A stretch of 49,661 bases of DNA from Lewinella cohaerens DSM 23179 (GTDB lineage Bacteria; Bacteroidota; Bacteroidia; Chitinophagales; Saprospiraceae). The notes under the pieces were generated by a model. That model saw only the letters and a program-made list of their open reading frames with translations. It searched no databases and was not told the origin of the DNA. Below, one piece after another: positions 17,217 through 26,974 of this stretch; the first letter of the stretch is position 1, and each line of letters starts with the position of its first letter. The DNA lies in the NCBI RefSeq assembly GCF_000379805.1, contig NZ_KB903531.1, forward strand, positions 400,960 to 450,620. Reading direction: 5' to 3'. The translations under genes were made by a program, and so were the position numbers.

Positions 17217-17374
17217 TACCCGTTACAAAACGACTTGGGCGTTTCTCCCTTGCTCTTTTCACTTAGGAGTTCGTTAGAAAGCCTCGCCGACACTAAGGTG
17301 TCGCCTACGTTTTCTGCCTCGTCCTAACCAAAAATAACTTCGGCATAAATCTTCAACCAGCTTCGTAACGGGTA
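17217..17374 (-). mobile_element. MITE-like structured element, copy 1 (158 bp)
   Basis: The ends are perfect 10-bp inverted repeats TACCCGTTAC/GTAACGGGTA. Read on the minus strand it aligns with copy 2 over its length, sharing AAAACGTAG, then CGA-x-ACCT, then TCGGCGAGGCTTT. The apical stem CGACAC/GTGTCG (17288-17293, 17298-17303) and mid stem TTAGGA/TCCTAA (17263-17268, 17322-17327) occupy the same positions as differently sequenced stems in copy 2, so pairing is kept while sequence changes. No ORF or transposase. The flanking dinucleotides are AA and TA, so no clear target duplication. Confidence 0.72.
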
Positions 17375-17428
17375 TAGCAGCGGTATGCGCCGCAGCAAAG
17401 CGAAGGCGCATAGGAGCGGATAGCCCGG

Positions 17429-17445
17429 CCCGGCTTAGAGCCGGG
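17429..17445 (-). terminator. GC-rich hairpin downstream of the molybdenum hydroxylase operon
   Basis: CCCGGC (17429-17434) pairs with GCCGGG (17440-17445) around TTAGA, 60 bp past the stop of the minus-strand large subunit. There is no T-run, so it may be a repeat-borne hairpin. The neighbouring words AGCGGATAGCCCGGCCC recur in Bacteroidota intergenic DNA as far as I recall. Confidence 0.4.
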
Positions 17446-17504
17446 GGATGCCAAATCAATGACCTTCCCTGACAGGTTTATCCGCTCTTTACCTAAGCTT
17501 GCCT

Positions 17505-19715
17505 TTAGCCCAACACTTCTTGTGGGTTGAACTCAAACGGCTGATGATACAATCGCTCACCAGTGGCTTTAGCCAATGCATTGGCCAATGCTCCGATAAC
17601 AGGTGGCAACGATGGCTCGCCCAAGCCCGTAGGATCAATACCATTTTCAACGAAGAAGACCTCTATTTCTCGGGGCGCTTCTGCGTGACGAATCAAGCGG
17701 TACTTGTCAAAATTGCTTTGCTGGGGCTTGCCATTCTCAAAGGTAATGGCGCTATACATAGCGTGGCCTATACCGTCGATAATACCTCCTTCGATCTGGT
17801 TGATCGCCCCCTCCGGGTTGACCACAATGCCACAATCTACGGCACACCACACTTTATCCACCTTGGGACGGTCGTTTTCCATGACCACGTCGACAACCTG
17901 CGCCACGTAAGAGTTGTGGCAGTAATAAGCCGCTACTCCACGGTGAACACCCGGCCGTTCGGTGCCCCAGCCAGCCTTTTCTTTCACCAACTTAAGCACA
18001 CCGGCGTAGCGATCTGCTTCGTAATCGTTCTTCTCTCCTACTGGCTTTGCTATCGCACGATCAAAGAGTTCCAAACGGAATTCGATAGGATCTTTTCCTG
18101 CTGCTTCAGCTACCTCATCCAGGAAAGCTTGCTCTGCACCAGCGATAAAATTCGAGCGTGGTGCGCGCCAGGCGCCAGTAGAAATATTGGAGCTTTTTTC
18201 AAGGTTTTCAGCCAGGTAATTGTCTACCGCTCCGGCAGGGAATCGATTGGCAAATACAGGACTTCCATCGGTGCCTGAGCCACGAACGTGAAAGCCTATG
18301 AGCTCATTATCTTCATTGAGTGCTGCGCGATACGTCACGCGGTAATCCGGGCGATAAGTGCCTTGGGTCATGTCGTCTTCACGGGTGTAGAGGAGTTTTA
18401 CCGGTGCGTTCATCTCTTTGGAGATCAAGGCGGCCTCTACCCCAAAATTGCCGTAGAGTCGGCGGCCAAAACCACCACCCATACGGGTCATCATGATGGA
18501 CACCTTGTCTTCTGGTAAGCCCACCAGGGCAGCCACCGTAGGCCGCAAAAATTCGGGCGTCTGAATAGGCCCTTCCAATTCGGCGTGATCGGCGGTAACG
18601 TGCGCAAAGAAATTCATGGGCTCCATGGTATTGTGCGCCAGGAAAGGGGCCGTGTACGTAGCTTCTACCACTTGGGCAGCACCAGCGAAAGCGCCTGTTG
18701 GGTCACCGTCTTTACGGGCAGCTTCCTTGGGCGTGGTTTCCATCAATGCCACCAGTGCTTGTTGCAACTCGGGGCTACTTTCCGGAGGAGTATCTTGCTC
18801 CCATTCGACCTGCAAAGCTTTCTTGGCCTTCATTACCTGCCAAGTGGTTTCGCCAACGATCGCAATCAATTCCGGGAAAGCATTGGTATCTGACCATTGC
18901 TTTTCTACGCCTTCTTTGTCGGCGTTAATCGTAAAGACCTTGCTAATACCGGGCATGCTGCTAACGGTAGTAGCATCGTAAGTTTTGAGCTTCATCCCAA
19001 AAGCGGGCGGATGGATGATCATCGCCGTGAGCATACCTTCGCGCTGCACATCAATGCCAAACAAGGGCTCGCCTGTGGTTATTTTTCGTCCGTCGACATT
19101 CTTTTTCCCTTGGCCAATGATTTTGAAATCAGCGGGTTCTTTGAGGGCTATTTCTTCGGGGACTTCTATGCCAGCTGCAGCAGATGCGATCTCACCGTAA
19201 CCGATGGTCTGGCCCGTGGCAGCATGAGTGATTATGCCATTTTCAGTGGTGAGTTCTTCGAGTGGCACTTGCCACTTTTCTGCGGTAGCAGCTACGAGTA
19301 GATGACGGGCAGCAGCCCCAGCTCTGCGTAAGCCTGGCCAACCAAAGCGAATCGACTGGCTTCCACCTGCCAGTTGGCGGGTAAATATCTCGGTATCAAG
19401 ACCGGCTTGTTCTACGATAACGTCTTCCCAAGCGACATCCAGCTCTTCGGCGACGATCATCGGCATGGAGGTTTTGACGTTTTGCCCGATCTCTGGATTA
19501 GGGGACATAATGGTTACGAGGCCATTGTCGCCAATTTTGAGGAAACCATTGATATCAAACCAGTTTTCCGGCATTTGGCGGGCCACTTCTTCGGCAATCT
19601 CCGATTCGGCAGGGCTACAGCCAGCCAGCCAACTGAAACCGAGTACCAACCCTCCTCCAGCGGCAGCCGATACCTTCAAGAAAGATCGGCGGTTATGTTG
19701 TGTTTTAACTTTCAT
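17505..19715 (-). CDS. Xanthine dehydrogenase-family molybdopterin-binding subunit (IorB type)
   Basis: 736 residues. The N-terminus has a twin-arginine signal (RRSFLKVSAAAGGG, R9-R10) followed by LAGC with Cys33, so export folded by Tat and lipid anchoring are both possible. The body matches the isoquinoline 1-oxidoreductase beta family: MSPNPEIGQNVKTSMPMIVAEEL, TRMGGGFGRRLYGNF, GAWRAPRSNFIAGAEQAFLDE, and the near-terminal GLGEPSLPPVIGALANA carrying the active-site Glu. This subunit holds the molybdenum cytosine-dinucleotide cofactor and hydroxylates an aldehyde or N-heterocycle with water. The iron-sulfur subunit lies 18 bp upstream. There is no FAD subunit, so electrons probably go to a cytochrome or quinone. 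The substrate is unknown. Confidence 0.9.
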   Translation of the reverse strand: MKVKTQHNRRSFLKVSAAAGGGLVLGFSWLAGCSPAESEIAEEVARQMPENWFDINGFLKIGDNGLVTIMSPNPEIGQNVKTSMPMIVAEELDVAWEDVIVEQAGLDTEIFTRQLAGGSQSIRFGWPGLRRAGAAARHLLVAATAEKWQVPLEELTTENGIITHAATGQTIGYGEIASAAAGIEVPEEIALKEPADFKIIGQGKKNVDGRKITTGEPLFGIDVQREGMLTAMIIHPPAFGMKLKTYDATTVSSMPGISKVFTINADKEGVEKQWSDTNAFPELIAIVGETTWQVMKAKKALQVEWEQDTPPESSPELQQALVALMETTPKEAARKDGDPTGAFAGAAQVVEATYTAPFLAHNTMEPMNFFAHVTADHAELEGPIQTPEFLRPTVAALVGLPEDKVSIMMTRMGGGFGRRLYGNFGVEAALISKEMNAPVKLLYTREDDMTQGTYRPDYRVTYRAALNEDNELIGFHVRGSGTDGSPVFANRFPAGAVDNYLAENLEKSSNISTGAWRAPRSNFIAGAEQAFLDEVAEAAGKDPIEFRLELFDRAIAKPVGEKNDYEADRYAGVLKLVKEKAGWGTERPGVHRGVAAYYCHNSYVAQVVDVVMENDRPKVDKVWCAVDCGIVVNPEGAINQIEGGIIDGIGHAMYSAITFENGKPQQSNFDKYRLIRHAEAPREIEVFFVENGIDPTGLGEPSLPPVIGALANALAKATGERLYHQPFEFNPQEVLG

Positions 19716-19733
19716 TGTTGTGGATTTTGGGGA

Positions 19734-20195
19734 TTAGCTCATTTTTTCAGCAGCCGTCTTGATGGCCTTTTGGATACGGGTGTACGTGCCACAGCGGCAG
19801 ATATTTCCGTTCATCCGGGCAGCGATTTCTTTATCACTGGGGCTAGGTGTATCGGCAAGCAGCGCCGCAGCATTCATGATCTGTCCGGCCTGGCAGTAAC
19901 CACACTGGGGCACGTCGTGCTCGATCCAGGCTTGCTGAACAGGATGGTTGCCTTTTTCAGAAAGCCCTTCGATGGTAGTGATTTTTTGGCTGCCAACAGC
20001 TGAAATTGGTACAGAGCAAGACCGCATGGCCAAGCCATCCAGATGGATGGTACAAGCACCACATTGGCCGATTCCGCAACCATACTTGGTGCCTAATAAT
20101 TTGATATGATCCCGGAGCACCCAAAGCACGGGGGTATCCTCAGCAACCTCCACCTCGTGGACCTGCCCATTGATACGTAGACTGTAGTTTGGCAT
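19734..20195 (-). CDS. (2Fe-2S)-binding subunit of molybdenum hydroxylase (IorA type)
   Basis: 153 residues with both [2Fe-2S] clusters of the family: plant-type ferredoxin ligands Cys40, Cys45, Cys48 and Cys60 ([21 protein letters not shown]), and the helical-domain ligands Cys98, Cys101, Cys133 and Cys135 ([20 protein letters not shown]). It relays electrons from the molybdenum centre of the large subunit. It is first in a two-gene operon, with the large-subunit ATG 18 bp after its stop. No Tat signal of its own, so it presumably crosses the membrane bound to its partner. Confidence 0.94.
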
Positions 20196-20588
20196 ATTGT
20201 TAGTTTATTTTGATAGCCTAAAATACAGAATCTTGGCCAATCTAGGCAAACTCACTTTGGGAATGCTCTCGAATAGGTAGATTTTGACTTGGAAGGAGTG
20301 CAGGTCATCTGCACTATATGCCTGGTATTGTTTTCCCAATAATCGTACGTCGCAGGATACACATCGTAACTCGTCAACTTGACTTCCCCAATGTGCTTTC
20401 GCTTCATCGATAACCTCCAACTTCTCCTTTTCACTCAACTTCCGAACTCCATTTCCTTGCTTCCTACATCTAAACCTCTAAAAAAGCTTTTAAACTTTCG
20501 TTAGCGTATATCAAGTGAGGTGGCCCTCTATAGTAAAGTAACTTATCTCAAAAACCATATAAATGGCACTCACTTACACAACTATTCT
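20196..20588. other. Gene-free or decayed stretch upstream of the molybdenum hydroxylase genes
   Basis: Two overlapping minus-strand frames (about 20205-20438 and 20252-20434) have only TTG or GTG starts, no recognisable family and conflicting frames. This may be a decayed gene or noise. Near 20511-20574 AAGTGAG and CTCACTT form a distant 7-bp inverted repeat downstream of the DUF2971 stop. The promoter of the Fe-S subunit must lie at the left end, but no exact TAnnTTTG was found. Confidence 0.5.
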
Positions 20589-21461
20589 TTAAACAATCAA
20601 CTCTTTAGCAAATTCTTTAGTTTTTCTATTGAAAACAAGCTTATAAACAGGTAAATCTGAGAATTCCTCATTTACCACTTCTATAATATATCCTTTATCT
20701 TCATCACTAATACTTGGCCCTAAAGCAACTTCTACAAAAGCTTCTGGGGGTAAGACAAAAGCTCTTTGTCCCTGTATGTATGAACTTGGCAATGGCTGTA
20801 TTTTAGTTCTAATCATTTTTGTAAATCGAAATTCTTCTTCGAAGCCTAAATCCTTCGGAATTGAAGAAAATTGTTGCCATACTTTTTCTGTTCTTTCTTC
20901 ATCACTAAATGATAGAGGAAATATCTTAGGAGGGTTCGATCGGTCATAGTACCTAACCCTCCCCATTGAACATAATATATTGTCATATATTATACTCGGT
21001 TTCAACCCCACACAATATCCTGTCCCCAAATCTCCAAACTTATCCCACATTTCTAAATTTAGTTCATTCAAACTAGTAGAAAAAATGCCAACATCTTTCT
21101 TCAACCTTGCCTCATGATTTTTTAGAGTCTCTGCTTGATTTTGTTTATCATGGAGAACCATTAACCCCCTTAATCGTTTAGCTTCACTTTTTATAACCCA
21201 TTCTGGTGAATTAGGTCTTACTAATTCAGCATGATATCGCGCCGTCCTATCCAGATCACCCTCAGTTACTGCATCAAAATCAAGAGGCAATCTACACTCA
21301 GGATAATCTGCATCGAAGTCATCGATGCTGGCGAAATAAATTTCTCGCTTCGTTAATATGCGATTATCGCAATTATTAATTCCGTCATTCCATACATTAT
21401 ATTTATACACAACCGAGGGTGGGCTCATATACTGTAATTTATCATCGATGAATTCCCTCAT
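20589..21461 (-). CDS. DUF2971 domain protein
   Basis: 290 residues. It shows the DUF2971 layout: VVYKYNVWNDG near residue 17, ILTKREIYFASIDDFDADYPECRL (fill-in of the FNDPFD region), VGIFSTSLNELNLEMWDKFGDLGTGYCVGLK in the middle, and a Tyr-rich strand RVRYYDRSNPPKIFPL. The biochemical role of this family is unknown. It often appears in accessory or defence-linked neighbourhoods, but no partner gene is adjacent here. The gene is AT-rich compared with its neighbours, which suggests recent acquisition. Confidence 0.78.
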   Translation of the reverse strand: MREFIDDKLQYMSPPSVVYKYNVWNDGINNCDNRILTKREIYFASIDDFDADYPECRLPLDFDAVTEGDLDRTARYHAELVRPNSPEWVIKSEAKRLRGLMVLHDKQNQAETLKNHEARLKKDVGIFSTSLNELNLEMWDKFGDLGTGYCVGLKPSIIYDNILCSMGRVRYYDRSNPPKIFPLSFSDEERTEKVWQQFSSIPKDLGFEEEFRFTKMIRTKIQPLPSSYIQGQRAFVLPPEAFVEVALGPSISDEDKGYIIEVVNEEFSDLPVYKLVFNRKTKEFAKELIV

Positions 21462-21508
21462 AAAAACGGATAATTAAAAGATAAAGTTGTCTTTTCTATG
21501 TTCCGACT

Positions 21509-22381
21509 TCAAAAAACACCAACTAAACCTACCGAGGAAGGGCCAGCCTGTAATCGCCAAGAGATCCGTGGCTGGTGGTCGTAATCGCCACTAGCTTGGA
21601 GATAGTTGTACACGCTATCTACGGAGATGATACTGATGGCTAAGCTCAGGCCGATATCGGACAGCCAATGGGCATTGGTCCACAAGCGAGAAACAGGCGT
21701 GACAGCGCCCAGGCTATAGATGCCTACTTTGAGCCAAGGGTTATGGACGCTACGGGCCAGCGCGTGAGCTGTAGTAAACGCAAGGATCGCATGCCCGGAG
21801 GGGAAGGAATGATAATCGGGTGTGCCGTTGAAGAAATCAAAATCACTATTCCCGACGCCGGTGCTGGGGCGCGCGCGGCCAACAACGGTTTTACTGACCG
21901 ACTGGATAAGGCCTGCCGTAGTAGCGGAGGCGATGAGCAAGACACCCGTTTTGCGAATTTTTTCATTCTTAGTGAGTATCCCCACGCCATAAACTGCAGC
22001 TGTAAGACCGTAATTATACTGTGGTTTCCCAAAATAAAAGGCTAAATCCTGAACGGTTTTGGGAATGTCATCGTGCTGATTGGTAAAAAAAGGATTCGCC
22101 TCTTCATCGAGGAGAAAAAGACCATAAGTACCCAAGGCAACACCACCCGCAATGAACCATTCTTTCTTTTTCCAGCGCGCAGGCCCAGCATAAGCATGTA
22201 GGACACTCTTTACGGCATTACGGCCATCTACTTTTAGGAGATCAATGCGCCGAGGGGGGGCTTCAAAAAGAGGCTGAACTTGGCTATTTCCGATCAAGGT
22301 ACAGGCAAGCAATGCCAAGGTGAGGAGATACTTCACTGGGGATAATTTTGAGGTGATTTTTATAAACACTTTAATTAACAC
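21509..22381 (-). CDS. PAP2-family phosphatase (membrane or periplasmic)
   Basis: 290 residues. An N-terminal signal or anchor (YLLTLALLACTLIGNS, about 18-33) precedes the acid phosphatase core. All three PAP2 motifs are complete: K164-x6-R171-P172 (KTVVGRARP), P194-S-G-H197, and S231-R232-x5-H238-x3-D242 (SRLWTNAHWLSD). Hydrophobic helices lie between them. Likely substrates are undecaprenyl pyrophosphate, phosphatidic acid or lipid A phosphates at the periplasmic face; sequence alone does not decide. The C-terminal 40 residues look barrel-like (RISWRLQAGPSSVGLVGVF). It is monocistronic or with DUF2971, 47 bp apart. Confidence 0.88.
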   Translation of the reverse strand: MLIKVFIKITSKLSPVKYLLTLALLACTLIGNSQVQPLFEAPPRRIDLLKVDGRNAVKSVLHAYAGPARWKKKEWFIAGGVALGTYGLFLLDEEANPFFTNQHDDIPKTVQDLAFYFGKPQYNYGLTAAVYGVGILTKNEKIRKTGVLLIASATTAGLIQSVSKTVVGRARPSTGVGNSDFDFFNGTPDYHSFPSGHAILAFTTAHALARSVHNPWLKVGIYSLGAVTPVSRLWTNAHWLSDIGLSLAISIISVDSVYNYLQASGDYDHQPRISWRLQAGPSSVGLVGVF

Positions 22382-22452
22382 CGCGTGAATCGTCCTGGTT
22401 GGATAGACGAGCGTGTTTGCAAAATTTCTAACAAGCTAAATATTGCACAAAA

Positions 22453-22484
22453 AAAGAGGCTACCCCTGTTGAGACAGCCTCTTT
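22453..22484 (-). terminator. Intrinsic terminator of the lipoprotein gene
   Basis: AAAGAGGCT (22453-22461) pairs with AGCCTCTTT (22476-22484), a 9-bp stem with a 14-nt loop. On the minus strand it runs straight into seven T. It lies 18 bp past the lipoprotein stop. A T-run on the plus side (22489-22495) would also let it act from the other direction. Confidence 0.8.
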
Positions 22485-22502
22485 CTTGTTTTTTTCCTGG
22501 TG

Positions 22503-23024
22503 TTAGATCGAACGCAGGATACCTTGGAATTCTCCTGTAACGGTAGTGCCGTTGGAAATACTGAGGCTCCAACTTAGCCGGGTTTCGTTACCCACTAATT
22601 CTACTTCAACTGTTCCGCCGATTACGGAAAAGTCCTCTCCAGTAAGCGTTGCCAAATCATAGTCGGTTCCAATGGATCCATCCACGAGGGTAAACGCATT
22701 GCGGTCACTAGAAAAGTTATACGTTCCAGCTACCAAACCCGTTGCCAGAGAGGAATTAAGATCCAGGTAAATGAATTCGCCCATGCCACTGAAGATGCCT
22801 TGAGCATCGCTATAGTTGACACCTTCGGAGGTAAGTGTTACATCAAAATCAAAGCTACCATTACCGTTAGCACCGTAATCTTGAATAAACCCTTTTGCCA
22901 AATCGTAGGTTGTTCCGTTGATGACAAACTCGTTTTTAGTGCCAGCGTCATCATCATCTTTGTTACAACCTGTATAAGCAAAGAGTGCAACTGTTCCTAT
23001 TAAAAAGAAAATTAGCTGTTTCAT
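22503..23024 (-). CDS. Surface-type lipoprotein of unknown function
   Basis: 173 residues with a lipoprotein signal (FFLIGTVALFAYTGC, Cys20) followed directly by NKDDDD. An acidic run right after the cysteine is the Bacteroidota signal for export to the outer-membrane surface. The mature part is beta-rich and Gly/Thr/Asp-rich (GNGSFDFDVTLTSEGVNY, SVIGGTVEVELVGNETRLSWSLSISNGTTVTGEFQG), resembling small lipocalin- or calycin-like lipoproteins; the family is not assigned. It has its own promoter (23134-23166) and terminator, so it is a single-gene unit. Confidence 0.75.
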   Translation of the reverse strand: MKQLIFFLIGTVALFAYTGCNKDDDDAGTKNEFVINGTTYDLAKGFIQDYGANGNGSFDFDVTLTSEGVNYSDAQGIFSGMGEFIYLDLNSSLATGLVAGTYNFSSDRNAFTLVDGSIGTDYDLATLTGEDFSVIGGTVEVELVGNETRLSWSLSISNGTTVTGEFQGILRSI

Positions 23025-23098
23025 ACTAAATGAAAATTGTTAGCGCCTCCTATGAAGGGGATTACGCTATGGTTAATAAGATTTAGGTTTTGCTCTAA

Positions 23099-23123
23099 TA
23101 GACATTATGCGAAATAATGTCTA
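23099..23123. promoter_or_regulatory. 10-bp inverted repeat in the lipoprotein 5' region
   Basis: TAGACATTAT pairs with ATAATGTCTA around GCGAA, lying immediately downstream of the lipoprotein promoter. It could be a leader hairpin or a repressor operator. Confidence 0.45.
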
Positions 23124-23133
23124 ATGACTATCA

Positions 23134-23166
23134 CAAAGATACATTGTGTTATTAATATTCGCCAAA
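23134..23166 (-). promoter_or_regulatory. Full Bacteroidota promoter for the lipoprotein gene
   Basis: On the minus strand TTTG (23166-23163), a 21-bp spacer and TATCTTTG (23141-23134) match both halves of the Bacteroidota consensus (TTTG, 19-21 bp, TAnnTTTG). The predicted start is about 23127, giving a leader of roughly 100 nt. Confidence 0.75.
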
Positions 23167-23400
23167 GAAATAAGTAGCACTTACGTTAATGGCGTTGTTT
23201 TGAACGTTCTTTCATCTGTGTTCTTACCTTTACAATCTTTAGGAATATTGTTGTACAAACCAAGTCCATAGTTCCTCTCTTTTCAGTTATCACAACTCAA
23301 TTTGAGTTATATTTACCAATAGGGAAATGCACTTGCTTGTGCAAATGACTCCTGCGCGCACATAGCAAAATTCCCAATGTAACTCGCTAAAACAAATGAT

Positions 23401-24414
23401 ATGAATAAGACCATCAGCCTCAATAGGAACCTTATCAATTTTGGGACTCCATTAAGTCTTTTTGGCGTGCTTATCTTATTGATGAAATCTTCCTTTCTAA
23501 CAGGAAGCAGCGATGCGATTAACCTTGCAATTACGGCTGATTTGTTGCTTACCGTTCCGCTTGTTTACTTTCTTCTTATTCGGAAAACGGAGATCCCCAA
23601 GACAACGGTTGTCCCGATGATGATTATTGGGCTTTTGATTGGGTCATACCTGCTGCCACAAGGCAGTCAAGCCTATTTGACCATCTTTAAAGCTTGGGTT
23701 TTACCTGTAATTGAAGTCTCCCTACTGCTTTTCGTGACATTCAAAGTTCGTAAAGCCATCAAAACTTATAAAGGAGTAAAAGGTGCTACGCCTGACTTTT
23801 TTAATGCTTTGAAAAACACGTGCCGCGAAATTCTTCCTACCAAACTTGCGACACCCTTTGCGACAGAGGTTGCCGTTATGTATTACGGATTTATCCATTG
23901 GAGCGCGCGGTCACTGCAAGAGCATGAGTTTACCTACCACAAGAGAAGCGGTACGCCAGCATTACTCGGAATATTTATTTTCATTATTGGCATTGAGACC
24001 GTTGCCATTCATCTTTTACTTGCTAGCTGGAGCAACATAGCAGCCTGGGTTTTGACCACCTTGAGTATTTACACTGGTGTTCAGCTATTAGGCTTTGCAA
24101 AATCACTCTCCCAAAGGCCCATTTCTATCCGTAAAAACAGTCTGGCGCTAAAGTATGGCATCCTAAGTGAAGTTGAAGTTTCCCTTTCGGACATCGATCA
24201 TGTTGAACTTTCAAGAAAGCCTTTGGCTAAGGATTCCTTATCGGAAAAGCTTTCGCCGTTAGGAGAAATGGAAAGTCACAATGTGATCATTCACCTAACC
24301 CGTGCCTACGAATTGACGAGCCTCTACGGAAAGAAGAAAACCTTCAAAGTACTGGGTTTGCATATTGATCAACCAAAAGTATTTAAGGAGAGGGTGGAGA
24401 AAGGGCTGTTATAG
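23401..24414 (+). CDS. Polytopic membrane protein, family not recognised
   Basis: 337 residues. The first 230 contain about six to seven hydrophobic helices (PLSLFGVLILLMKSSFL, LLLTVPLVYFLLI, MMIIGLLIGSYLLP, VLPVIEVSLLLFVTFKV, LLGIFIFIIGIETVAIHLLLAS, NIAAWVLTTLSIYTGVQLLGF). The C-terminal 100 are soluble with alternating strands (SISIRKNSLALKYG-like, then VSLSDIDHVELS, NVIIHLTRAYELTSLYG), as in bacterial PH-like domains that follow membrane segments. No catalytic motif is clear. It is followed by a convergent barrel gene. I do not assign a function. Confidence 0.6.
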   Translation: MNKTISLNRNLINFGTPLSLFGVLILLMKSSFLTGSSDAINLAITADLLLTVPLVYFLLIRKTEIPKTTVVPMMIIGLLIGSYLLPQGSQAYLTIFKAWVLPVIEVSLLLFVTFKVRKAIKTYKGVKGATPDFFNALKNTCREILPTKLATPFATEVAVMYYGFIHWSARSLQEHEFTYHKRSGTPALLGIFIFIIGIETVAIHLLLASWSNIAAWVLTTLSIYTGVQLLGFAKSLSQRPISIRKNSLALKYGILSEVEVSLSDIDHVELSRKPLAKDSLSEKLSPLGEMESHNVIIHLTRAYELTSLYGKKKTFKVLGLHIDQPKVFKERVEKGLL

Positions 24415-24442
24415 GTGGAAAATTTAAAGCGTATTGGGCCAT

Positions 24443-25090
24443 TCAGAGATTCAGTGCTAAGTTTAGCCCAAAGCCAAAATAATGATCGTTTCTTCGGTCC
24501 GTTTTTACAACTTGGTTTAGTCCATAATACCCCTTTACGCCTGTTGATAATGAATAATTACCCACCTCAAAATCTGTCCCAAGCGACAATAACAAGGGAA
24601 AAGTTAAAGCATTGAATGCTTCTGAATCAAGTGATATTATTTGTACCGTTTTTTCATCGCTAACAATTGGTCTTTTAGTAATCTGTTTCGTTCTATTAGA
24701 AACCATCACGCCCAATCCTATTTCCGGTAGGAAATAAAATCTAGAGAAGTTGATTTTTGCTCCAATCGGAAGATACAGGTAATTGTAATTATGAATATTT
24801 TCAATTTCTATCTGGCCTTGAAATATTTCATTTGAAAAGTCAAGAAACTCCTCTGCACCTGTATTCAGAAAACCCAAACCCACTGTTGGATCTATTATAC
24901 CTTTTGCGCTATAAGTGATTCTAAATGTAGCATTATGACCAATTTTAGATTTTTCGTTTTCCTCTCCGTTTGTAAGTCGGGAGGTAGTTGGGGAATACGC
25001 TAAAGTGAAGTCGAATTTACTTTCTTGCGAAAGAACTATTTGTGAAAACATTAATAACAGCAACAGGTACTTCAAACTGGCATAGTTCAT
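24443..25090 (-). CDS. PorT-like outer-membrane beta-barrel protein
   Basis: 215 residues with a signal peptide (YLLLLLMFSQIVLSQ, mature start near ESKFDF). The mature region has about eight amphipathic strands (KFDFTLAYSPTTSR, NATFRITYSAKGI, YLYLPIGAKINF, FYFLPEIGLGVMVSN, PLLLSLGTDFEVG, YSLSTGVKGYYGL, YFGFGLNLALNL) ending in an aromatic/Leu strand as in barrels inserted by BamA. The YLYLPIGAK motif is common in Bacteroidota PorT-like proteins. Function unknown. Confidence 0.68.
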   Translation of the reverse strand: MNYASLKYLLLLLMFSQIVLSQESKFDFTLAYSPTTSRLTNGEENEKSKIGHNATFRITYSAKGIIDPTVGLGFLNTGAEEFLDFSNEIFQGQIEIENIHNYNYLYLPIGAKINFSRFYFLPEIGLGVMVSNRTKQITKRPIVSDEKTVQIISLDSEAFNALTFPLLLSLGTDFEVGNYSLSTGVKGYYGLNQVVKTDRRNDHYFGFGLNLALNL

Positions 25091-25398
25091 ATTTTTCGCT
25101 TTGTTTTATTCAAAGTAGCTGTTTTCAGGAGATTTCATTGCCTGAGCTCCTGTATTAACTAATTATTATCACTGTGATTTTACTATTCGGATAGTGATAT
25201 TACTATTTTTCACGATACAACTGATTGAGGTGACGTAGGGGTATTGTCATGCTAATGGGGAATCGGGATATTCGTTTACAATAAATATAAGCGGGCTTCT
25301 TCACCTTCTGAATAGACTTAGTCAACTATACGGATACGGTTAAGTGTACAAAAACAAAAAAAACGCAAACCAGCACTATACTGATTTACGCTTTGTTG
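25091..25398. other. AT-rich gap before the tRNA
   Basis: About 300 bp without a gene. TATCACT and AGTGATA form a 7-bp inverted repeat near 25168-25200 within an AT-rich patch. The right end holds the tRNA terminator listed separately. Nothing else was recognised. Confidence 0.5.
25356..25390 (-). terminator. Intrinsic terminator of tRNA-Arg
   Basis: On the minus strand CGTAAATCAG and CTGGTTTGCG (25390-25364) form a 10-bp stem with two wobbles and a 7-nt loop, followed by eight T (25363-25356). It begins 9 bp after the tRNA 3' end, a textbook position for termination of a single-tRNA transcript. Confidence 0.8.
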
Positions 25399-25470
25399 TG
25401 GTCCCGGGAGGAATCGAACCTCCATCTCAGGCTCCGGAAACCTACATACTATCCGTTGTACTACGGGACC
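25399..25470 (-). tRNA. tRNA-Arg (anticodon CCG)
   Basis: 72 nt on the minus strand. The acceptor stem GGTCCCG pairs with CGGGACC, discriminator A. The D arm GTAC/GTAT encloses AACGGATA. The anticodon loop TTCCGGA gives anticodon CCG, reading CGG arginine codons. The T arm GGAGG/CCTCC encloses TTCGATT. CCA is not encoded, as is frequent in this phylum. Confidence 0.95.
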
Positions 25471-25608
25471 ATTCCGGTGCTGCTTTTTTAAGACAAGTAA
25501 TTCTTCGAATTAGTTCCTCCCTTTAGCAGCGGGCACAAATGTAGAGTTTCTATTTTACAATAGAAAGCCTTGATCGCAAAAAAAGACCTATTTTTGGGGC
25601 GAAATTTG

Positions 25609-26301
25609 TTGTCCTTGAGAAAACTACTCACCACCTTCCTTTTAATTATTGGGGTTTCCCTCTCCGGGGTGGCCCAAAATGACTGTAGTAGTCTTGCCGA
25701 ATTCCCCGTGGGCCGGCAATGGACTTATCAGTGGTATGGCGCCAACGAAAAGCCGAGTTTCCGCACCTTCCACCGGGTTTTACCACAAAAAACGACTGAC
25801 CACAATCAGCTGGAGGTCGTGATCCTCAATGCTTTTCAGGACACGGTCTACCGTGGGCAGTATGAAATCAGGTGTACCGAAAGTGGCCTTGCCCAAGATC
25901 TATTGGCCAAACTCACCCCTGATATGCTGAGTTCGCTGGCCGGATTTGAGCTGCGCACCGAAGAAAACGGCTGGCTCCTCCCCAAAGGCATCCGCTCTGG
26001 CGATAGCATTCCTCAGGCTTATTCTCACATTACAGGCTTCAGTCAGGGAGCTAAAGTCCTGGAAATTGACCTTGCTATCGGCCCCGTACACATTCTCGAC
26101 CAAGAGGATCTGAGCACCCCAGCCGGTGGCTTCCCCTGCGTAGCCATGGCCTACGAGTTATGGGTAACCCAACTGGTACGCAAACGCTTCCGGCTCCGCG
26201 ACTGGTTTGCGCCCTCTATTGGTGTCATCCGCCGCGAGGTCTTCGACCGGAATGGAAAATTCTTTGGCTATTGTGAGTTGGTGGAGTTTTTGCCGGGATA
26301 G
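25609..26301 (+). CDS. Secreted protein of unknown function
   Basis: 230 residues from a TTG at 25609; in-frame TTGs also exist at 25570 and 25615 and there is no ATG. The 25609 start places a normal signal peptide (LRKLLTTFLLIIGVSLSGVAQ) at the N-terminus, with maturation before NDCSSLAEF. The mature part reads EFPVGRQWTYQWYGANEKPSF near its start, then long beta segments (LEVVILNAFQDTVYRGQYEIRC, VRKRFRLRDWFAPSIGVIRREVFD) and GYCELVEFLPG at the end. This recalls the TapB/DUF3108-like pattern of periplasmic proteins, but only loosely. It sits alone after the tRNA. Confidence 0.65.
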   Translation: MSLRKLLTTFLLIIGVSLSGVAQNDCSSLAEFPVGRQWTYQWYGANEKPSFRTFHRVLPQKTTDHNQLEVVILNAFQDTVYRGQYEIRCTESGLAQDLLAKLTPDMLSSLAGFELRTEENGWLLPKGIRSGDSIPQAYSHITGFSQGAKVLEIDLAIGPVHILDQEDLSTPAGGFPCVAMAYELWVTQLVRKRFRLRDWFAPSIGVIRREVFDRNGKFFGYCELVEFLPG

Positions 26302-26453
26302 GGGTTTGTTGAATGGTTGATTTGTTATATGGTTGGATGGTTAGCGGCTTGGAGTTCGTTCTAAAAGTAGCCCTCGAAGTCCGTTCAACGACGAGGACCA
26401 ACAGGACAATTCAGTTCGGCGACATGAAGAAGTAAAAAATCAAATATCAGAAT
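26302..26453. other. Short gap with possible degenerate repeat
   Basis: GGAGTTCGTT (26351-26360), followed by a CCTCG/CGAGG hairpin, repeats the GGAGTTCGTT of element copy 1 (17266-17275) and the same order of CCTCG and GACGAGG words. It may be a worn fragment of that element. Otherwise nothing. Confidence 0.3.
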
Positions 26454-26974
26454 ATGGCCCAACGATTTAAAATATTGAATGCTTCGATCAAAGCTTCCTT
26501 CGTATTATACCCAGCACTAAGTGGTTTGGGAATATTAGCGCAACGTCATTTTGTGTTCTGATAAGGCGAAAAACGTAGTCGAAACCTAAGTTTCGGCGAG
26601 GCTTTTCAACGCAGTCAGAACACAAAAGGACAAGTGGAAATGTCCCAAACCACTTAGTAACGGGTATAGATGATGAAGAGCCTGTTGTATTCGAATTCAA
26701 TGATTTCTTTCAAGAGTTTGAAGGAATTGTTGGTTTTAAATTAGATGGCTATAGTAGTGGGCTTATCAAAGTTGATAGGAATAGGAGGTTACAAAAAAAG
26801 TTGTCTGATAAACTGTACGAAATTGAAGACTCTTTTCCAGAGGTGAAGGAATCTAGTTACGACAGTAACAAATTAATAAATAAGAAAACCACTATTCGGT
26901 TCTTTGAAGAAATCATCGCGTTTCTAGAATTAGCTTATACAAACAACGCTAGGATTTTTGTAGAAGGTGAATAA
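26454..26974 (+). pseudogene. Small hypothetical gene interrupted by the 159-bp element
   Basis: An ATG at 26454 opens MAQRFKILNASIKASFVL and then enters the element, where a stop follows. After the element a frame resumes at 26669 (DDEEPVVFEFNDFFQEFEG) and runs 101 codons to the TAA at 26972, with no ATG of its own near the left end. Removing the element and one copy of the flanking TA (26508-26668, 161 bp) joins the two frames exactly, giving 119 codons. The product would be an acidic, helical cytoplasmic protein (KVDRNRRLQKKLSDKLYEIED, IRFFEEIIAFLELAY); no family recognised. The 3' part might still be expressed from a non-ATG start. Confidence 0.7.
26508..26666 (+). mobile_element. MITE-like structured element, copy 2 (159 bp), inside a gene
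   Basis: It begins TACCC and ends GGGTA, flanked on both sides by TA (26506-26507, 26667-26668). It folds into a nearly continuous hairpin: ACTAAGTGGTTTGGGA with its exact complement (26516-26531, 26643-26658), TTTTGTGTTCTGA with its exact complement (26549-26561, 26615-26627), and CGAAAC/GTTTCG around CTAA (26580-26595). It aligns with copy 1 in reverse orientation. No protein is encoded, so movement would need a transposase in trans, none of which is in the window. Confidence 0.78.

Follow-up and report, generated by a model that had tools for sequence, protein, structure and literature searches.

A conserved, structured core in hairpin miniature elements of Lewinella cohaerens and its association with different transposon ends

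Introduction

Among described systems, the closest to the elements considered here are the Correia elements (CREE, NEMIS) of Neisseria, multi-copy hairpin miniature inverted-repeat transposable elements (MITEs) of about 105 or 155 bp. According to the available excerpts of three reports (PMC2649163; PMC2229807; PMC10969869), transcripts of Correia elements are bound by RNase III, with cutting or protection as the outcome, and an IHF site is found in some long forms; one of these excerpts includes an example in which filled and empty sites differ by 107 versus 105 bp (PMC2229807). Here we analyse a stretch of 49,661 nucleotides from Lewinella cohaerens DSM 23179 (contig NZ_KB903531.1, positions 400,960 to 450,620; hereafter the window), which holds two hairpin elements of 158 and 159 bp, elements 1 and 2, with a conserved interior core.

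Dispersed palindromes that are moved in trans also include the REP/BIME sequences, whose palindromes are moved by RAYT transposases. REPs measure 20-40 bp in the excerpt of PMC3733652, whereas the present elements span ~160 bp and have terminal inverted repeats (TIRs) and DDE partners. RUP of Streptococcus pneumoniae is a nearer parallel, being an IS630-family MITE that has its TIRs in common with IS630-family insertion sequences (ISs) and uses a TA target; it differs in its length of 107 bp, and the excerpt available reports for it no other signature of structure or function (PMC2229807), while the interior of the present elements is conserved. The same excerpt describes ERIC/IRU of enterobacteria as 127-bp mobile palindromes with an orientation-dependent effect on mRNA stability (PMC2229807). 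A TATA-ended hairpin MITE lies in a group I intron of Thiomargarita nelsonii, and in the part of that report available its authors liken the structure most to Correia elements (PMC4853749).

Results

Two hairpin elements of a mobile, multi-copy family

The two elements begin with TACCC, end with GGGTA and align end to end with a single 1-base gap, exactly where a preliminary description of the window had placed them, and the stem swaps quoted there (CGACAC/GTGTCG versus CGAAAC/GTTTCG; TTAGGA/TCCTAA versus TTCTGA/TCAGAA) are present in the sequence (Table 1). RNA fold prediction turns each element into one long hairpin, with minimum free energies of -55.7 (element 1) and -75.6 kcal/mol (element 2) on the strands given in Table 1 and of -40.9 and -70.3 kcal/mol, respectively, on the opposite strands. 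In size and coding content both are MITE-like: they are shorter than 500 bp, have palindromic ends and overlap no open reading frame (ORF) of 80 or more amino acids. The two bases before element 1 are AA and the two after it TA, so that the TA is missing on one side.

That description had proposed searching the genome and its relatives with a covariance model, and such a search located further host copies. A model (R1) derived from the inner 114 bases of 15 host copies matches 24 places in the 7.3-Mb host genome (G000) at E<=1.1e-3, 15 of them expected by construction. A plain DNA search of the same genome returned 28 rows, some of which are both strands or pieces of one place. The complete genome of a sister species of the same genus (G002) gave 37 R1 matches, of which 28 were fetched; many are near-identical copies with the ends that we call type A, lying in unrelated surroundings, and eight share one score of 118.0 bits. 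Most of the type A copies displayed for this genome have TATA on either side, and a single TA fits the empty site in a diverged pair of loci (L026 versus L147, 82-88% flank identity). Elements with type D ends behave differently at their target. In a duplicated segment of G037, a genome of the same order outside the host's family, the element lies between two copies of TAA and the empty site holds one (L114); at a second locus, among tandem repeats in a metagenome-assembled genome (MAG), the empty copies again hold a single TAA, the left boundary being less clear (L175). Type D therefore makes a 3-bp duplication, unlike IS630. The window elements are thus non-coding, non-autonomous transposons (MITEs) that belong to a hairpin family which has many copies and shows signs of having moved recently.

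Two features adjoin the elements. A short reading frame beginning MAQRFKIL (window 26450-26970) is apparently split by element 2; when the flanks are joined minus one TA, an open stretch of 125 codons with the same start results, compared with 114 without the removal. This joined frame is only suggestive of a TA duplication because it encodes an orphan protein, with no homologue in 40 genomes besides the host itself. Directly after element 1, a GC-rich word (GCGGATAGCCCGGCC; window 17375-17450) recurs beside one of the copies in the sister species (L104).

Table 1. Coordinates of the two elements and their parts in the window (R2, core model; IS, insertion sequence).
Feature	Position	Strand	Details
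Element 1, hairpin MITE, 158 bp	17217..17374	-	more diverged type A-like ends
Element 1 conserved core (R2 positions 1-61)	17265..17325	-	R2 71.5 bits
Element 1 internal loops 2 and 3	17270..17320	-	GAGGC 17316-17320, ACGTAG 17305-17310, CGAGGC 17281-17286, AACGAA 17270-17275 (R2 alignment)
Element 2, hairpin MITE, 159 bp	26508..26666	+	type A ends; flanking TA at 26506-26507 and 26667-26668
Element 2 left terminal inverted repeat with flanking TA	26506..26532	+	22/27 and 24/27 identical to the two ends of the IS630-family IS
Element 2 right terminal inverted repeat with flanking TA	26642..26668	-	23/27 and 24/27 identical to IS ends
Element 2 conserved core (R2 positions 1-61)	26558..26618	+	R2 77.5 bits
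Element 2 internal loop 2, 5' strand	26563..26567	+	AAGGC (consensus RAGGC); nearly invariant
Element 2 central 5-bp helix, 5' side	26568..26572	+	GAAAA, paired with TTTTC at 26603-26607; part of pairs covary
Element 2 internal loop 3, 5' strand	26573..26578	+	ACGTAG (consensus ACGYAG)
Element 2 internal loop 3, 3' strand	26597..26602	+	CGAGGC
Element 2 internal loop 2, 3' strand	26608..26613	+	AACGCA (consensus AACGNM); nearly invariant

The core is under structural selection

The core consists of a 5-bp helix between two internal loops that have a common pattern, C[GNA]G opposite C[RA]G, a GNA/RA arrangement that may resemble the bulged-G (loop E) motif of RNA. Each arm reads CRAGGC-N5-AACGYAG, and the two N5 stretches pair with each other. 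A second model, R2, was built for the core from 36 chosen diverse sequences, of which seven come from Proteobacteria and were picked up by pattern or by similarity. Over the window it recovers both elements, and its sole further match at E<=10 scores 11.1 bits over 25 nt.

Two copies alone could not show that the fold is selected, as the preliminary description had concluded from its pair; the larger sets do show it, and paired positions do not vary independently. Standard pairs fill 94.7% of pair cells in the 15 host copies (shuffled mean 80.3%; 0/500 shuffles reach it), with a covariation score of 0.498 (shuffles 0.200; 0/500). Two other measures are weaker: 12/500 shuffles reach the 13 pairs that changed on both sides, and 19/500 reach the 31 further pair types. 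The 36 diverse cores have compensatory changes in 16 of the 19 pairs and a score of 0.499 against 0.162, with 0/500 shuffles on all measures, and the signal is lost when partners are slid by 1 to 3 columns. Across two phyla the unpaired positions of the core hardly change at all, while the flanking stems vary yet keep pairing. The core, with its 5-bp helix and a similar internal loop on either side, is therefore under structural selection.

Comparison with Rfam gave no match above the gathering score at the window elements or at 14 further loci. At E<=5 over five host loci, the only match at the elements was MIR821 in L009, with 24.7 bits against a cut-off of 249. To this extent the elements belong to no named family, and the preliminary description had recognised none; the Correia elements nevertheless appear related, as described below.

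An IS630-family partner and one core with several end types

One of the two possibilities raised for these elements had been a transposase acting in trans, to be sought as a gene flanked by the same ends, and such a gene is present in the sister species. A 19-base word from the ends (<=2 mismatches) occurs at 32 places in the host and 53 in the sister species (reversed control word, 0), and in the latter it exposed an IS at eight loci; seven of the copies measure exactly 1110 bp, and the eighth is interrupted. The 351-amino-acid product is an IS630-family transposase (NF033545, 192.9 bits with a cut-off of 100; Pfam DDE_3). Three pieces 94-96% identical to this IS are present in the host genome, each running into a contig end. 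The TIRs of element 2 agree with IS630-family IS ends at 22-24 of 27 bases, as in an IS630-derived MITE. Judged by its sequence, element 2 is a MITE with IS630-family ends, predicted to be moved in trans; element 1 may rely on a related IS630 not seen here.

Core-bearing elements have ends of the types TATACCC (A), TATAGTCC (B), TATACTTCGG (C), AGGAATG (D) and AGAGCCTGTTTAAA (E), and also AGTGGTTC. The type E ends of two of them (L046, L048) have their first 11-17 bases in common with the ends of an 883-bp IS of the sister species, whose product is an IS5-family transposase (NF033580, 177.6 bits with a cut-off of 110). The matches to IS630 and IS5 ends mean that the same core is carried with the ends of two unrelated transposase families, in addition to the type with a 3-bp duplication. 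R2 finds no core at the eight IS630 loci of the sister species. Since the core also occurs with IS5 ends and in the 3-bp type and these IS630 loci lack it, the transposase most likely reads the ends and not the fold, contrary to one of the suggestions in the preliminary description.

A 1672-bp sequence with type B ends and an IS4-family transposase (L142) was considered as the type B partner and rejected: at positions 501-2172 of this sister-species locus, a type B MITE is interrupted by an IS4-family IS that has inverted repeats of its own and is flanked by a direct repeat. No such fault affects the IS630 and IS5 partners, whose reading frames reach to ~10-75 bases from both ends and in which R2 finds no core. 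Type B ends also occur as coreless 48-bp perfect or near-perfect palindromes of two ends, at five sites in L143, L144, L147 and L151 (host) and L161 (sister species).

The same small palindromic insert is found at the same position in elements of different end types, in three sets of loci (L004, L024, L025, L042, L082, L110; L106, L107, L110; L093, L110). Such common inserts suggest template switching or gene conversion among copies.

The core occurs in two phyla

With R1 at E<=0.1, 27 of 60 relatives match, the weakest best E being 0.0015. The matching genomes include 25 of 37 in the host's family (host included) and two of 23 in the order's other families, one of which, G037, has 62 matches. 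An even sample of the phylum gave seven of 395 genomes (host included) at E<=1e-3. An exact-pattern scan of the genome collection returned 67 stretches, mostly from Saprospiraceae and Bacteroidetes MAGs, together with Xenophilus, a Comamonadaceae MAG and Rhizobium oryzicola, in whose genomes R2 has 13, 15 and 21 matches, respectively. At E<=0.01, R2 matched 52 of 300 genomes from the order to which the Xenophilus isolate belongs and, at the level of its phylum, 65 of 398, two samples that overlap in part; the best E was <=1e-3 in 46 of these 52 and 64 of these 65 genomes, and a few genomes at the threshold may be there by chance because E-values are per genome and rough. Stricter filters were used in the large R2 searches, so that weak matches were lost. 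Four core records came from the plasmid collection, of which three were fetched; the queries used found no core in phages, E. coli genomes or IMG/VR. Antisense or partial rows were dropped before some counts (L034-, L029-, L275 (1512-1551), L320-, L293+, L308+), and one locus search took a chosen 84 of the loci collected by then.

Ends are again diverse in Proteobacteria, several being flanked by CTAG- or TTAA-like tetranucleotides, and the plasmid collection yielded no IS partner for two proteobacterial end types. The ends of one proteobacterial element (L326), AGGAATGG, resemble Saprospiraceae type D. Some proteobacterial cores lie in inverted pairs ~105 bp apart (L320, L293, L308, G478:C11:485796-485964), and some 100-bp forms end in CAACCC adjoining CGGG.

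Relationship to Correia elements

We assembled 13 IMG/VR stretches with 15 Correia word sites (108,432 bases), for which Neisseria is the presumed host. Correia copies from ten of these stretches are hairpins of 106 and 155-157 bp ending in TATAGTG/CACTATA, one with a changed end. R1 gave three weak matches (best E 0.013). R2, which contains no Correia sequence, gave ten matches at E<=10, all of them Correia copies, with 13.4-21.4 bits and a best E of 8.5e-4. In the control of 109,001 bases, made up of nine ERIC-word contig stretches and 50 kb of E. coli K-12, the single match (10.5 bits) lay in E. coli, with none at E<=10 on the ERIC-word stretches.

R2 thus recognises ten of the 15 word sites. 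Correia elements keep the core segments in the order CAAGGC, CGCAG or ACGAAG, (C)RAGGC, AACGCYG. They differ from the window elements in their ends (TATAGTGGATTAA in Correia, TATACCCG in the window) and in the central helix, nearly lost in Correia and 5 bp long in the present core. The long Correia form has a 50-bp insert with an IHF site; the IHF word given in the excerpt of PMC2649163, CTTCAGCACCTTA, is absent from the window elements.

Strand asymmetry and orientation

Double-stranded palindromes alone should have G.T and A.C mismatches equally often on the modelled strand. In the R1 stems of 85 sequences, on an alignment fitted to the model, G.U occupies 144 cells and A.C 31 (weighted, 67.6 versus 17.1). 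Over whole arms the counts are 300 versus 222 (72/86 elements), with 188 versus 114 in Proteobacteria (48/70); they become 160 versus 104 (Proteobacteria, 119 versus 82) after clustering at 90%, and 136 versus 86 after clustering at 80%. This excess of G.U favours folding of one strand, as RNA or as single-stranded DNA, moderately in Bacteroidota and weakly in Proteobacteria.

Insertion relative to neighbouring genes was scored with ORFs called by a crude longest-ORF rule, a few loci entering twice. The sister species alone is biased to sense (20 versus 6 among 28 copies, p=0.009 uncorrected); the other groups are not. A bias relative to replication was also rejected: 18 of 28 copies in the sister species share one orientation with respect to the replichores inferred from GC skew, which is not significant. 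None of these 28 copies lies between 1.93 and 3.92 Mb, around the skew change near 3.0 Mb, and nine further matches are unplaced.

Discussion

Our results are best accommodated, in our judgement, by a division of labour between ends and core. An IS630 transposase would cut at the ends in trans, the core being dispensable for this step, and the core would be a module in its own right, carried along by any ends that happen to be active. It would work single-stranded, most likely in transcripts, as a folded hairpin bound by a protein or a nuclease, comparable to the substrate that Correia elements offer to RNase III, and could thereby alter the stability of the RNA in which the element lands. On the present analysis we lean towards this combination, in which the transposase makes use of nothing but the ends and the core, as a folded strand that is most likely RNA, influences its transcript; an RNA role for the core is the preferred reading, with moderate support.

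Several observations weigh against parts of this account. The ends of element 1 agree with IS630-family IS ends at 17-19 of 27 bases, the IS5-family partner is seen at one locus of the sister species only, and no partner emerged for types B, C and D (lone ends; 30 of 37 PF01609 loci in three genomes). As noted, the R1 stem counts come from an alignment fitted to the model; the proteobacterial whole-arm excess shrinks to 61 versus 54 after clustering at 80% and is nearly absent from the proteobacterial core set (14 G.U versus 12 A.C, only L275 dropped). An insertion bias towards the sense strand had to be rejected, since among 231 copies in six groups 53 have both neighbours codirectional and 49 both opposed; with no overall sense preference, one argument for transcription is removed. 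To these are added the low scores of the Correia copies, their differing helix and the sites that R2 misses, which we take up below.

Other roles for the core have to be set beside an RNA role. It could act as folded single-stranded DNA, the hairpin formed in replication or transformation recruiting a host factor or joining the ends for the transposase. The entire element is indeed one long hairpin, a strand-asymmetric excess of G.T would be expected here too, and 18 of the 28 copies examined in the sister species share an orientation; this last figure is, however, not significant, the transposases of IS630 and IS5 belong to the DDE class and act on ends that are double-stranded, and purine-rich internal loops of the core's kind are more familiar from RNA, so that we regard this explanation as unlikely. 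Still less probable, to our minds, is a core without function, in which all end types descend from one ancestor and palindrome drift with gene conversion keeps the cores alike: types A to D can be aligned over much of their length and the small inserts at one position across end types speak for exchange among copies within a genome, but drift should erode unpaired positions and stems equally, whereas the former stay nearly invariant across two phyla while the stems change. We give least credence to a double-stranded binding site for a nucleoid or recombination protein, with the direct repeat CRAGGC-N5-AACGYAG as its target. Such a site would explain why both arms have the same motif in the same orientation, yet positions of the central helix, the apex and the outer stem covary as pairs, for which a linear site has no need.

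A separate question is whether the likeness to Correia elements reflects descent. The Saprospiraceae, proteobacterial and Neisseria elements could be separate families that converged on a short motif, a possibility that we consider real if the less probable one: Correia scores are modest, five of the 15 word sites go unrecognised by R2 (a full-length copy in L256 among them), and Correia has an altered central helix and different ends. Convergence does not readily explain why hairpin MITEs of equal size have their conserved strand segments in one and the same order, or why a model built without Correia sequence placed 10/10 of its matches (E<=10) in 108 kb at Correia copies and found one match, of 10.5 bits, in a control of 109 kb. 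We think it somewhat more likely than not that Correia elements and the present core have a common origin. The wider proposition, that a single ancient, structured and RNA-like module with two similar GNA/RA internal loops reached at least two phyla by repeatedly taking on the ends of unrelated ISs (IS630, IS5 and others), Correia elements being one branch, we would neither favour nor disfavour at present.

MITEs, IS630 partners and Correia elements are already known. A core better conserved than its ends, across two phyla and two IS families, was not found in the open-licence literature, and the literature matches listed include no report of a Saprospiraceae MITE; literature searches with sequence words are uninformative on novelty because the Correia word likewise returned nothing. 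The excerpts of the Correia literature at hand (PMC2649163, PMC2229807, PMC10969869) mention no link to other phyla.

Bacterial MITEs are usually recognised by their ends, the interior being seen as filler or as the remnant of an IS. In the elements described here it is the interior that is conserved, and the ends that change with the transposase family. If the wider proposition above is true, the core would be a portable passenger of MITEs, independent of their ends, and not a by-product of any one transposon. Should the link to Correia elements hold, a Neisseria repeat known for decades would be one branch of a family that spans phyla, and the question of what its core does would open to comparative data and to simple in-vitro tests.

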